From Acytostelium subglobosum LB1 (lineage: Eukaryota; Evosea; Eumycetozoa; Acytosteliales; Acytosteliaceae), in contig NW_012236530.1 of the NCBI RefSeq assembly GCF_000787575.1, positions 1,640,740-1,704,739 of the forward strand: DNA of 64,000 nt, in the 5' to 3' direction. Position numbers and translations under genes: made by a program. Under the pieces are notes generated by a model. That model searched no databases. It was not told where the DNA came from and worked only from the letters and a program-made list of their open reading frames with translations. Positions 39,153 through 44,130 of this stretch are shown here, piece by piece. Position 1 is the first letter of the stretch. Every line of letters starts with the position of its first letter.

Positions 39153-40648
39153 CTAGAAGTTTACTACAGCAGGGTTATTGATACCAATCATGTAGCAATC
39201 ATCATTGGTTGCATTGATGTAGGCATATCCGCCATATCCCCATTTGGTACCCCAAGAGCTTCAATCATGATATGGATAGTGTGGTAATATTATGTGTTAG
39301 CGAATGGGAATACCTGATGTGTTTGTTGTATCATACATACTTTCTTACGATCCAGTAGTCATTATAGGTATTGTAGCCTACGATCACGATCACATGATTG
39401 GTATCATTGTACTTTACAGCACAGTTCAAAATACCACTCTTGTAGTTCCTCCACGTTGTGTCTGACATAACACCAGTCACCACTGGACCATTCTGAAGCT
39501 CATCGATAATGGCTTGCTTGGTGTTGTGCAGGAACTTCCAAGAGGCCCACTTGACATGCGGTCGGTCCGGTTGGTGCACACACGTGTCATTCTTTGCGAC
39601 GTAGGGGATGTCTGCTTCCGATTGGATACCGGTTGCAAACGTTCTAAAGATCTTGGTATACCACCCACCAGCACATCCATATGGCAAGCAGTTGACCATT
39701 TGTTGTTCCGATAGATCAATGGCTGTGTTTGGATCGCCTCCATACTTTTGCATGTACTTGGCCTCAATATGAGCAATAGACTATTATTATTATTTCGGGA
39801 TGATCGATCAGTAATCAAGAATCATTAAACTTATAATCAGGTGATGATGAGAGGATACATACAGCGTAGCTCCAACATGATCCACAGTTTCCTTGGGATT
39901 TGACTGGTGTTAGAATGTTCTTTGTTCTCCAATCAGAGTCGTTGGGACTGACAGGTGGTGTTGTGGGTGTTGGTGTTGGAGGCTGTGTAGGTGTTTGAGT
40001 TGGTGTTTTGGTTGGTGTCTGAGTCGGAGTTTGGGTTGGTGTCTGAGTTGGAGTTGTAGTTGGTTTGGGTGTTACTACAAATTTCTTGTAAGGATCAGCT
40101 CCAGGTAGACCTCCAGCAGGATAATAATCACAGATTATGGTTGTCTTTAGAAATCCACATGATGAGGTTTTGGCACATCCAATGCTCAGACTTCTGTTTG
40201 ACATTGCAACGAGATATGGCTGACAAGCTTTACCTGGTTTGCAAGTTGACTTGCTCCAATCATATTGGTCAGCAAGTTGAATAACATTCTTGAGAGTCTA
40301 GATGATAAGTTAGTTTAGTTAGAGAGATATATTAATTAACATGGCAATTTGACATACCTTGTTCAAACTAAATGAGAGTGATGAAGTACTCCTCCATTCA
40401 CTGTAGATACCATAGAGAGCACCAGGACTTAAAGATGATGAACAATTGTCTAAATGACTTTGAACCAAATTAGCAATGGTATTGTTCCAAACCAGAAGGG
40501 GCAAAGGTGATAGAGGAGAAGGAGTTGGGGAGGACCTCCATGAGTTATGAATCTCTACGATTGAAGCGATATCCTTCGAATCCAAAGGAGCACCTAATAG
40601 AGGTGTGATCAAACTGATCAATGTAAATAAAAATAATATATATTTCAT
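39153..40648 (-). CDS. CAP-domain / papain (C1A) fusion cysteine protease
   Basis: Four exons (40648-40358, 40297-39863, 39780-39341, 39258-39153), all in phase, 423 residues. The start chosen (40648) gives the signal peptide MKYILFLFTLISLITPLLG. Residues ~25-170 form a CAP (SCP/PR-1) domain: VEIHNSWRSSP, LLVWNNTIANLVQSHLDNC, LSIGCAKTSSC and TIICDYYPAGG. The usual Glu/His metal-site residues are not obvious, so it may not bind zinc. A Thr/Pro-rich linker (PTQTPTQ repeats) leads to a papain-family domain with oxyanion Gln and Cys238 in SQGNCGSCW, His371 (DTNHVIVIVGYN) and Asn389 (VRNSWGTKWGYGG). The I29 inhibitory propeptide normally found upstream is missing. It is head-to-head with the I29-like gene at 41128. 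Predicted secreted or lysosomal. Confidence 0.88.
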
Positions 40649-41127
40649 TGTTATTTGTTGTTTGTTTTTTTTTTTTGGAATAGACAACATCTATTAAGTT
40701 GATGACGTACAAGATGTAGACTCATGATTAACCAAGATCGATCAAGTTGTTTTAATCGACTTATCGTACATTAATTAATTAATTAATTCCTTCTAATTTC
40801 TAAAGTTAGTCAATGGGTTGGACTGTGGTTTGGGCCAAAGACTGGTCTTTTCAATTAAACAGACATAAAAAGCTCGTTCAAAATAACCCTTCACCAGATA
40901 TTTATTGACAAATCACGATCTTCAAAAATCTAGATGGCGTGTCACGCACAAAGTCAAGACTTAATTAATCCAATCGGTTAAAGAAACAATCTGGTTGTAG
41001 AACCATCGATCCCAAATTGTAGAACTACATCTAACTCTACACCAATAGAATAAGTTCAATCTAAATCGAGTTGGGTTTTTAGTTATTATTATTAGTAAAC
41101 TAAACAAAAAGAAAGATACAGATAACA
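40649..41127. promoter_or_regulatory. Shared divergent promoter region
   Basis: This is the 479-bp spacer between the start codons of the CAP-papain protease (minus) and the I29-like protein (plus). It is AT-rich, with an ATTAATTAATTAATT tract at 40770-40787 and T- or A-rich runs next to each start codon (40660-40675, 41078-41112). Any element here could control both genes; no specific motif can be named. Confidence 0.45.
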
Positions 41128-42002
41128 ATGTCATTGTCAAATATTAAGTTTATGTTATTATTAGTGTCATTGCTCATATTAGTCTCGGTAATAGGAGGAG
41201 TACCAACTGAAAATGAACTATGGAATTCATTTATTAATTGGAGGGATACCTATGAGATTGTTTATAGCAATGATGAGATACAATCAAGGTTTGCTAAATA
41301 TAAAGTATGTATTTAAATAGACAATGTTATATAATATTTTATTAATATATATAAATATATTATAGATCAACCTTTTAGAAGTTGCCAAGCTGAATGAAGT
41401 AAGAACTGAAGGTGTTGATATCTACCTTGACTTTGCCACATCTACATCTGATACTACACAAAGATCTTTGTTGGCAGAAGTAGAACCTGTAGTATCGTAC
41501 CCCTCCGAGATTCAACCAACTTGTAAGTATAATTTAAATCATTTTTGGAAGTTATCCCAATCTATTGCTTACAAAATATATATTATTAGATTCCGTCAAT
41601 GAATTTAGTGATATGTCTGTATCAGAGTTTAGTGAGGGCCATTTTGGAGGTGATAGTACTTTAGCTGATCGACCTGAATTGATTGTTGCCGCTGCCACCT
41701 TGTCAACTGGTGCTTTGGCAGGAGCTATCGCTGGAGGTATTGCAGCGGTTGCCGCAGTGTCAGTAGCAGCAGGTGTAATTGCCTATAGACGTATGAATAG
41801 AAAATCAGTCCAGGTACAAGTGGAGTTGGAATCTTCAAGTCAAGCATCTCCAGTTGCCACAACTGCACAGCCAGTTAAGAAACTAAGGACCAGAACCTTA
41901 ATTGATGTGTTTAGCTTTAGACCAAAGAACCCCTCGCACAAGTCAATCACTGCCAGAGCTGTTCCATCTACTGGAACTGTTGTAGTTGATGCCCAACAAT
42001 AA
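41128..42002 (+). CDS. Membrane-anchored I29 (cathepsin propeptide)-like protein
   Basis: Three exons (41128-41304, 41366-41522, 41590-42002) in phase, 248 residues. A signal peptide (~1-24) is followed by an I29-type domain. The ERFNIN signature is complete: Glu50, Arg54, Tyr58, Asn61, Val65, Asn69, spaced E-x3-R-x3-Y-x2-N-x3-V-x3-N. The later SVNEFSDMSVSEF block (~113-125) matches the conserved NxFxD..-type end of cathepsin propeptides. No peptidase domain follows. Instead there is one hydrophobic Ala/Gly/Val-rich segment (~143-177) followed by RRMNRK and a basic cytosolic tail of ~70 residues. Stand-alone I29 proteins (CTLA-like) inhibit papain-family proteases. Inhibition of the neighbouring protease is a hypothesis. 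Confidence 0.82.
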
Positions 42003-42148: not shown

Positions 42149-43894
42149 TTAAATGATCCTTAGTCTATCTGTTCGTACATTGCTCTGTTTTTTAACTCCA
42201 TTAAGAGAGTGACTTGAAATGACACATTCCTCTAATGACACGTTGATGAGAGTGGAGTTTGGGAAGTTGGTATGCAAAAGGTTGGAGTTTGCCAACTTCA
42301 CATTGTTGAGCTTGGTGAACTTGAGCAGGGTGCCAGTGAGTGTTGCACGGGTGACGTTGAGATTGTCGAGCTTGCAGTGTGCAAAGATGCATGCCTCAAA
42401 TGTTGATTGGAAGCCATTGAGGTTGTCAATGTTGGTGTCGATCAAGTTGGTCTTATTGTGCACTGCGTTTGACATGTTGCAGTTGGAGAGCTTGCAATTG
42501 GTAAAGGTGCAATTGACAAAAGAAGCGCCAATAAATTCACAATTACTAAAGGTGCACTCAATGAACTGAGTGCTATTGATGCGAGTGCTGTTGAGCTTGA
42601 CATTGTCGAACTGACAGTGATTGTACACTTCGCACATAAAGACAGAGCCAATGAATGATCTGTTGCTGTACTTCTCGTTGAGTTTTGGTGGCGAGGTGTT
42701 GAGATAGACATGTTGGAAATCAGATGGTATCGTTGACTTGGCCGCTTTGACATTGATGTTGGATATACTGTTGTTGGCATTGGTGGTGGATGATGCTGCT
42801 GGCGAGAATGTATTGACGTTTGGCATCAAACTCGTGTGTAAAGGTTGATGGAAGGATTGTAGTACAGATGGATTGCTATGAAGGTTGGGGTATAGATATG
42901 AGGAAGGTCGTGGAGGATATTGATAGGTTGGTGGTCCGTTGGGTTGGTATGGTGATGTTGGCATGTAAGAGGCAGGAGGTGTGTAGGTCTGGTAGTGATA
43001 CATCGAGGGTGGAAAGATCGTACTGGAGGGATAGAAAGAGTTCTGAGGTGGTGTTGGAAGGGCTGGAGGTGTTGGAAGGGCTGGAGGTGTTGGATGTATA
43101 GTTAGATTTGTTATAGGATTGGATGATGTAGTTTGTGTTGGTGGCCTCTCGAGGCTTGTCAAAGGTGGGGCTATCGCGGTTGATTGCGGAGTTGGAAGAG
43201 GTTGAGGATTATTGGGTATTGGTGGATTAGATGTACTATTGTTGTTGTTATTATTATTATTATTATTGTTGTTGTTAATATTGTTGGCATTCTGTGGGGC
43301 ATCATTCGCAAACATCCTCCTGGTGAAATCAATTAGAGGTGTTATAAAAGATGTTGTGTTGCCACTGCTGTTGTTGTTGCTGTTGTTATTGCCATTCATT
43401 GGCTTAACCTTGGGTATCAGTCCAGGTGGTAGTACTAATGGTTGTATGTTAGTGTATGCATTCAGACATTGAAAATCAATCACTGACAACAATGACATAC
43501 CAATTGAACATGATTGAACATGGTCTACAATATCCTTTCTGGTCGTAGACTTTAAGCAGACCTTACAGGTGACCTTTACTTCTGATAGAGGTCTGAACAA
43601 GAAGCGCTGTGTTGAAGGTGTCAGCAGCACGTCATTCCAGTGCTGAACGTCGTATCGACAGAAGGGACATCGCTTCTGTTTCTCTACACACTGTCGACAG
43701 AATAACTGACTGCACTGTGAGTTCTGTGAAGAGTGCTCCACTGGATCGATCAATGGGCAATAGCAAATCGGACAGTCAATTGCTTCATTCTCTTCGTTTT
43801 CATCGTCATATGTGAATGGCTATGGCAGTAGCGATTGTTAGAATATGACATCGCTGTGTCTTTGGTTAGTGTAGATACATACAAGGTCATCCAT
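42149..43894 (-). CDS. RING finger / pentapeptide-repeat protein
   Basis: Two exons (43894-43883 encoding MDDL; 43819-42149), 560 residues. The short first exon is supported by a GTATGT donor and a phase-0 CATAG acceptor. The N-terminus has a C3HC4-type RING (CPICYCPL...LFCRQCVEK...CPFC), then a second Cys/His cluster (VTCKVCLKSTTR...DHVQSC). This is followed by Asn- and Pro/Tyr-rich linkers. The C-terminal ~150 residues are pentapeptide-like repeats with hydrophobic residues every fifth position (CEFIGASFVNCTFTNCKLSN). A RING suggests E3 ubiquitin-ligase activity, and the pentapeptide beta-helix would be the target-binding or scaffold part. I do not recognise a characterised homologue with this order. 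It is tail-to-tail with the I29-like gene and head-to-head with 44131. Confidence 0.8.
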
Positions 43895-44130
43895 CTAAAT
43901 GTATAAATATCTATTTCTTTGTTTGTTTGTTTGTTTGTAATAATAATAATGAGCAAGATTTAATGAGAAATTGGAATGATTCATTCAACTTTGTCTTGGA
44001 AAGCTGAGGTTGTTTTCAAGGTGTGTTGAACTACTTCCTCTTCTTCATTATTACAACATCTAACATTTATCATTCGCAGGTTATCAGGGAGCATCGTAGA
44101 GTGCAGCACTAGACAACAACCTTTATAGCT

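Follow-up and report, generated by a model that had tools for sequence, protein, structure and literature searches.

Papain-type enzymes of the C1A family are thought to need a prodomain on the same chain both for folding and for silencing. The nearest comparison is with the zymogens that have an I29 prodomain in cis (cathepsin L/papain, e.g. propapain and procaricain), and the genes described here resemble them in the C1A core, in the ERFNIN and N-x-F-x-D blocks and in an F-x5-G stretch. Here, by contrast, the prodomain is encoded by another gene; it carries a transmembrane segment, its two blocks are set about 30 residues further apart, and the N-terminus of the protease is a CAP domain. A precedent for binding of the propeptide as a separate chain is chain P of PDB 3f75, 'Cathepsin L Propeptide', in which an I29 propeptide forms its own chain and is matched by the profile of the family described below. 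That structure is from Toxoplasma, with the propeptide derived from the same gene as the protease, unlike the separate membrane protein encoded here.

Free I29 proteins that act on C1A enzymes in trans, i.e. CTLA-2alpha, crammer and BCPI, have a key glycine close to the end of I29 (PMC4089206, excerpts); for the proteins described here a comparable trans action is predicted. The known ones are, in the excerpts of that source, small free proteins, whereas those considered here are membrane proteins that have a conserved tail and are encoded beside a protease. The domain order CAP:C1A has been published for proteases of Dictyostelium purpureum, Polysphondylium pallidum and Planoprotostelium, and the reversed order C1A:CAP for Aphanomyces (PMC10084794, excerpts); the slime-mould proteins have the order found here, the excerpts name no I29 partner, and the term I29 occurs zero times in that text. 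The CAP:C1A architecture and the free I29 inhibitors are already known, but no pairing of a C1A gene with a gene for a membrane-anchored I29 protein was found in the open-access literature among the matches listed, as judged by title and start of abstract.

The locus lies in a stretch of 64,000 nucleotides of Acytostelium subglobosum LB1 DNA (the window, 43% GC, whose positions are used below), and both of its genes were spliced by hand. The protease gene runs from 39153 to 40648 on the minus strand in four exons (40648-40358, 40297-39863, 39780-39341 and 39258-39153) and encodes 423 residues. Its first part (39947..40648, introns included) specifies a signal-like N-terminus, a CAP domain at residues 32-155 and a Thr/Pro-rich linker at about residues 170-212, as read from Pfam, sequence and hydropathy; the remainder (39153..39946, introns included) specifies the C1A catalytic domain, residues ~215-423. 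Peptidase_C1 (PF00112) scores 164.1 bits and CAP (PF00188) 32.6 bits, both above the curated cut-offs, and the presence of Cys238, His371, Asn389 and the oxyanion Gln232 places the protein in C1A. A match to I29 (PF08246) is absent from the protein at E up to 1. The spliced model, the Pfam scores and the catalytic triad thus bear out the initial annotation, which had described a signal peptide, the CAP domain, the Thr/Pro linker and the full C1A core, with no ERFNIN helix. Nor was an I29 exon found within or upstream of the protease gene: searches of the window with the family's own profiles match the plus-strand neighbour (41104-41999), and the other match, at 43870-44004, is at chance level (E 1.5).

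The cavity tetrad of CAP domains includes two conserved histidines. By eye, the first is present in the window protein (IHNSWR), and the histidine of the second cavity motif is found in none of the nine CAP-C1A proteins of this genome.

The divergent neighbour (41128..42002, plus strand; exons 41128-41304, 41366-41522 and 41590-42002; 248 residues) scores 34.8 bits against Inhibitor_I29 (PF08246; cut-off 24.4), which makes it an I29 protein, and has no peptidase match in Pfam. Exon 1 (41128..41304) encodes a signal-like N-terminus and the first part of I29 into the ERFNIN helix, whose spacing is exact by eye (E50, R54, Y58, N61, V65, N69, with Tyr for Phe and Val for Ile). Exon 3 (41590..42002) encodes the EFSD block at residues 116-119, a cleft-type glycine (F125-x5-G131), a predicted transmembrane segment that corresponds to the strongest internal hydrophobic segment and begins at about residue 158, and a tail with HKSITAR. 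These features, and the position of the gene 479 bp from the protease, agree with what had been annotated (ERFNIN from Glu50 to Asn69, EFSD, a membrane segment, no peptidase); a new detail is that the N-x-F-S-D block follows the ERFNIN helix with ~30 additional residues in between. The intergenic region (40649..41127, assigned to no strand) measures 479 bp from ATG to ATG at 31% GC and is presumed to be a shared promoter region. Beyond the I29 gene, the next minus-strand gene (42149-43753) seems by eye to begin with a RING/TRAF-type N-terminus, after which come low-complexity stretches and pentapeptide-like repeats.

Head-to-head partner genes have a dictyostelid parallel in tgrB1/tgrC1 of Dictyostelium. 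Gene modelling across the 30.7-Mb assembly (56 contigs), in which the paralogues were completed by hand against one another, yields nine CAP-C1A genes (the window and loci L025-L029 and L031-L033) and nine stand-alone I29 genes with a membrane segment (I29-TM; the window, L025-L030, L032 and L033). Eight of each form head-to-head pairs, distributed over seven contigs (the window, L025, L026, L027, L028, L029, L032 and L033), with ATG-to-ATG gaps of 291-1186 bp. Since the same divergent arrangement recurs in eight copies, the window pair represents more than chance. CAP and C1 are present by Pfam in 9/9 of the proteases and PF08246 in cis in 0/9 at E up to 1, so that none falls among the I29-dependent zymogens. 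The Pfam I29 search of the genome at the same threshold tells the same story from the other side: of 18 places, 12 are cis zymogens with a C1 match just downstream on the same strand, and the remaining six, one of which (on contig C26) scores below the curated cut-off, are all I29-TM genes, five of them adjoining a CAP-C1A gene. The I29-TM genes of the window, L032 and L033 are absent from that search result.

One gene on each side is unlinked, i.e. the protease of L031 and the I29 gene of L030. No I29-TM match lies around the former (C50:1003000-1022000; L031, L047, L055), and around the latter (C55:1545000-1567000; L030, L048, L049) the protease profile matches nothing. The counts of both families are lower bounds, because the six-frame searches score best candidates only. 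Three genome searches with single I29-TM proteins gave no further confirmed member besides the known family and the cis-I29 genes; the weaker matches (C54:1590608, E 0.0027; C20:60811, 0.012; C55:368273, 0.063; C35:367110, 0.15; C21:147512, 2.9) cover the membrane part, or FSD through the membrane segment. A stronger candidate, C54:809165 (L056, E 9.2e-7), was rejected, since its similarity is confined to the membrane segment. A scan of viral contigs with the protease gave five pattern matches and no relatives by tblastn. The pairs of L027 and L028 lie ~14 kb apart on contig C43 in opposite orientations, which suggests local duplication with inversion.

The explanation that we consider likely is that every CAP-papain has a membrane-anchored prodomain of its own, which acts in trans to fold, hold and inhibit it, the window genes being one of several co-inherited copies of the pair. 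The protease would have lost, or never possessed, a cis propeptide and has at its N-terminus a CAP domain carried by a Thr/Pro stalk; the CAP-C1A chain would enter the ER without a folding template. That template would come from the adjacent gene as a separate type I membrane protein, which may bind the protease within the secretory pathway and aid its folding, while the N-x-F-S-D/F-x5-G segment would cover the active-site cleft. The short luminal stretch from the glycine to the membrane would keep the enzyme close to the bilayer until low pH or cleavage sets it free; the CAP domain could extend outwards on the Thr/Pro linker, and sorting of the complex is probably the task of the conserved cytosolic tail. 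If so, prodomains are able to become dedicated chaperones and inhibitors in trans, whereby folding, silencing and sorting become separable, and the nine natural pairs, including two of pseudo-enzymes, would be material for studies of enzyme-inhibitor specificity and co-evolution. The split enzyme/inhibitor pair proposed in the initial annotation is supported in part: the eight linked pairs and, as set out below, matching subfamilies, co-divergence and clean flanks at control loci speak strongly for the split into two genes, and binding, inhibition, help in folding and co-expression are the part that is predicted. The role of the CAP domain as a targeting module, also proposed there, is conjectural.

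The cleft-segment residues expected of an inhibitor are kept throughout the I29-TM family. PF08246 matches seven of the nine proteins at E up to 1 (L032 and L033 lack a match), and F-x5-G follows the (F/Y)SD block in all nine, with the same spacing in the zymogens of propapain and FBSB (fruit bromelain) as aligned in a PDB search with the family profile. The family profile alone succeeds in this search; queried as single sequences, neither the window I29 nor the L033 I29 protein gave a convincing I29 match in PDB. Glycine G73 of crammer is essential for inhibition and L77/G78 of BCPI matter (PMC4089206, excerpts); by eye, the I29-TM glycine appears equivalent to G73 and G78, with crammer and BCPI one residue shorter in this stretch. 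A phase-1 intron exactly five residues before (F/Y)SD, at 41523..41589 in the window gene, is common in position and phase to 7/9 models and absent from those of L029 and L033; its presence in L032 is evidence, separate from any sequence score, that this gene belongs to the family. The hydrophobic segment starts 33-45 residues past FSD, and both an N-terminal peak and a strongest internal segment of at least 2.0 are found in 9/9 proteins, a hydropathy pattern that suggests a type I membrane protein with a signal peptide.

The tails are conserved in two forms, H-(x)-SITAR in six of the nine proteins and a different sequence common to L032 and L033. These two loci are also exceptional in their proteases (L032:3658-4944 and L033:3345-4691), in which the catalytic Cys position is Ser (CGCSFAF and CADSFAF, respectively), and in the decayed ERFNIN helix of the partners, which nevertheless keep the pairing, the membrane anchor and the glycine. 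Because the proteases have Ser for Cys and the partners lack a Pfam I29 match, inhibition in the usual sense cannot be the role of these two pairs; their sequences fit either a contact kept after loss of proteolysis or a serine nucleophile.

The tails bear on a second reading, in which I29-TM serves chiefly as a receptor or as an adaptor for cargo, gripping the protease by the prodomain fold, with the tail passing on a message or the cargo and inhibition being incidental. The motif in 6/9 tails favors it, as do L032 and L033, where a different conserved tail accompanies proteases without the catalytic Cys and gripping could persist when inhibition has no object. However, a simple sorting signal would equally need a tail motif, and the cleft-type glycine is retained in 9/9 proteins, as an inhibitor would require. 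We regard this receptor function as possible but doubtful, and since it overlaps with trans folding and inhibition the likelihoods of the two are not exclusive. A bolder version, about as tentative, would have at least nine dispersed modules of two genes each, their prodomains turned into membrane receptors that build, silence and deliver the respective CAP-papains, with the tail sensing or sorting the loaded state and the two modules without the catalytic Cys acting as a pure ligand-receptor system.

Whether the I29-TM gene follows CAP, C1 or their combination can be judged from control loci of the same genome. Among 21 CAP rows of the genome search seven are CAP-C1A genes, and the other 14 represent 12 CAP-only genes at 11 loci, all of which were fetched. 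None of these 12 genes has an I29-TM match beside it at E up to 1 (flanks of ~1.9-5.0 kb), nor does any of seven C1 loci that lack both CAP and cis I29 (L034-L038, L045 and L046; flanks of 1.3-4.2 kb); several control loci are multi-exon and partly modelled. At E up to 10 chance-level matches appear in L037 (E 1.2), L044 (2.4), L040 (2.5) and L024 (8.6), and none remains with the nine-member profile at E up to 1, the L024 site being covered via L054. As far as examined, the I29-TM gene thus accompanies the combination of CAP and C1A and not CAP or C1 as such.

Maximum likelihood trees were made for the C1 domains (nine CAP-C1A and eight of ~19 other C1 genes, from loci L001-L008) and for the I29 domains (nine trans and seven of the 12 cis-I29 genes, from the same loci). 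The nine CAP-C1A domains form a single group against the eight other C1 domains (98/97), and the seven cis I29 domains are split from the nine trans ones (99/98). L027/L029 and L032/L033 are grouped in both trees. The orphans match as well, each being closest to the L025/L026 members of its own family: the L031 protease joins L025/L026 (89/88), and the L030 I29 joins them in a polytomous fork (89/89) that also holds the long-branch L032/L033. The deeper nodes of the I29 tree are weak.

These results weigh against a third reading, by which I29-TM guards the cell against other cathepsins, be they foreign or the cell's cis-I29 enzymes, and the adjacency of the genes is left over from a gene that split long ago. 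Crammer of Drosophila does inhibit a Bombyx protease, a non-natural partner, with nanomolar Ki (PMC4089206, excerpts), so that action beyond the native enzyme has a precedent. Nevertheless, the copy numbers found are nine to nine, the subfamilies match with the unlinked orphans included, and no I29-TM gene was found beside the other C1 loci examined; a general guard of this kind seems improbable to us.

Co-divergence of the two families was assessed by comparing pairwise C1-domain distances with I29-TM distances under permutation of the pair labels, first for the eight linked pairs and then for nine with the orphans. With whole I29-TM proteins, r is 0.92 for eight pairs (1 of 40319 other relabelings equals or beats the true one), 0.83 for the seven pairs that remain without L033 (8 of 5039 others as good) and 0.75 for the six without L032 and L033 (0 of 719 others as good). 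With the luminal part only, congruence is weaker: r is 0.83 for eight pairs (0 of 40319 other relabelings as good), 0.59 for seven (76 of 5040 labellings as good, the true one included) and 0.67 for six (10 of 720, the true one included). Entering L031 and L030 as a ninth pair again gives r=0.92, a value that none of 100000 random relabelings reaches. Since joint duplication of a pair yields co-divergence in any case, these figures show co-inheritance and not binding. Neutral hitch-hiking, in which the genes duplicate together without a functional tie, would likewise produce congruent trees, as block duplication of any pair presumably does, yet it is very improbable given that eight of nine pairs are still adjacent over seven contigs and at 26-69% C1 identity, and that an unlinked orphan has been kept on both sides.

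The eight intergenic regions were compared for a common promoter motif. Among words of 8-10 bases and at least 40% GC, none is common to four or more of them, which, like the one unlinked gene on each side, counts against the split-pair explanation; 7-mers in at least four regions are in mild excess (35, against a mean of 18.1 and a maximum of 26 in 40 shuffles); seven 7-mers occur in at least five regions (shuffle maximum 8) and two in at least six (shuffle maximum 2).

Some features were also seen in C1 genes outside the paired family. L034, L045 and L046 are by eye cathepsin B-like and without ERFNIN, and the cathepsin B-like open frame at L034:4111-4992 ends in a hydrophobic stretch that is possibly a membrane anchor or a GPI signal. 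L007 (C56) and L008 (C32) are classical cis-I29 C1 genes with long Ser/Gly-rich inserts inside the catalytic domain.
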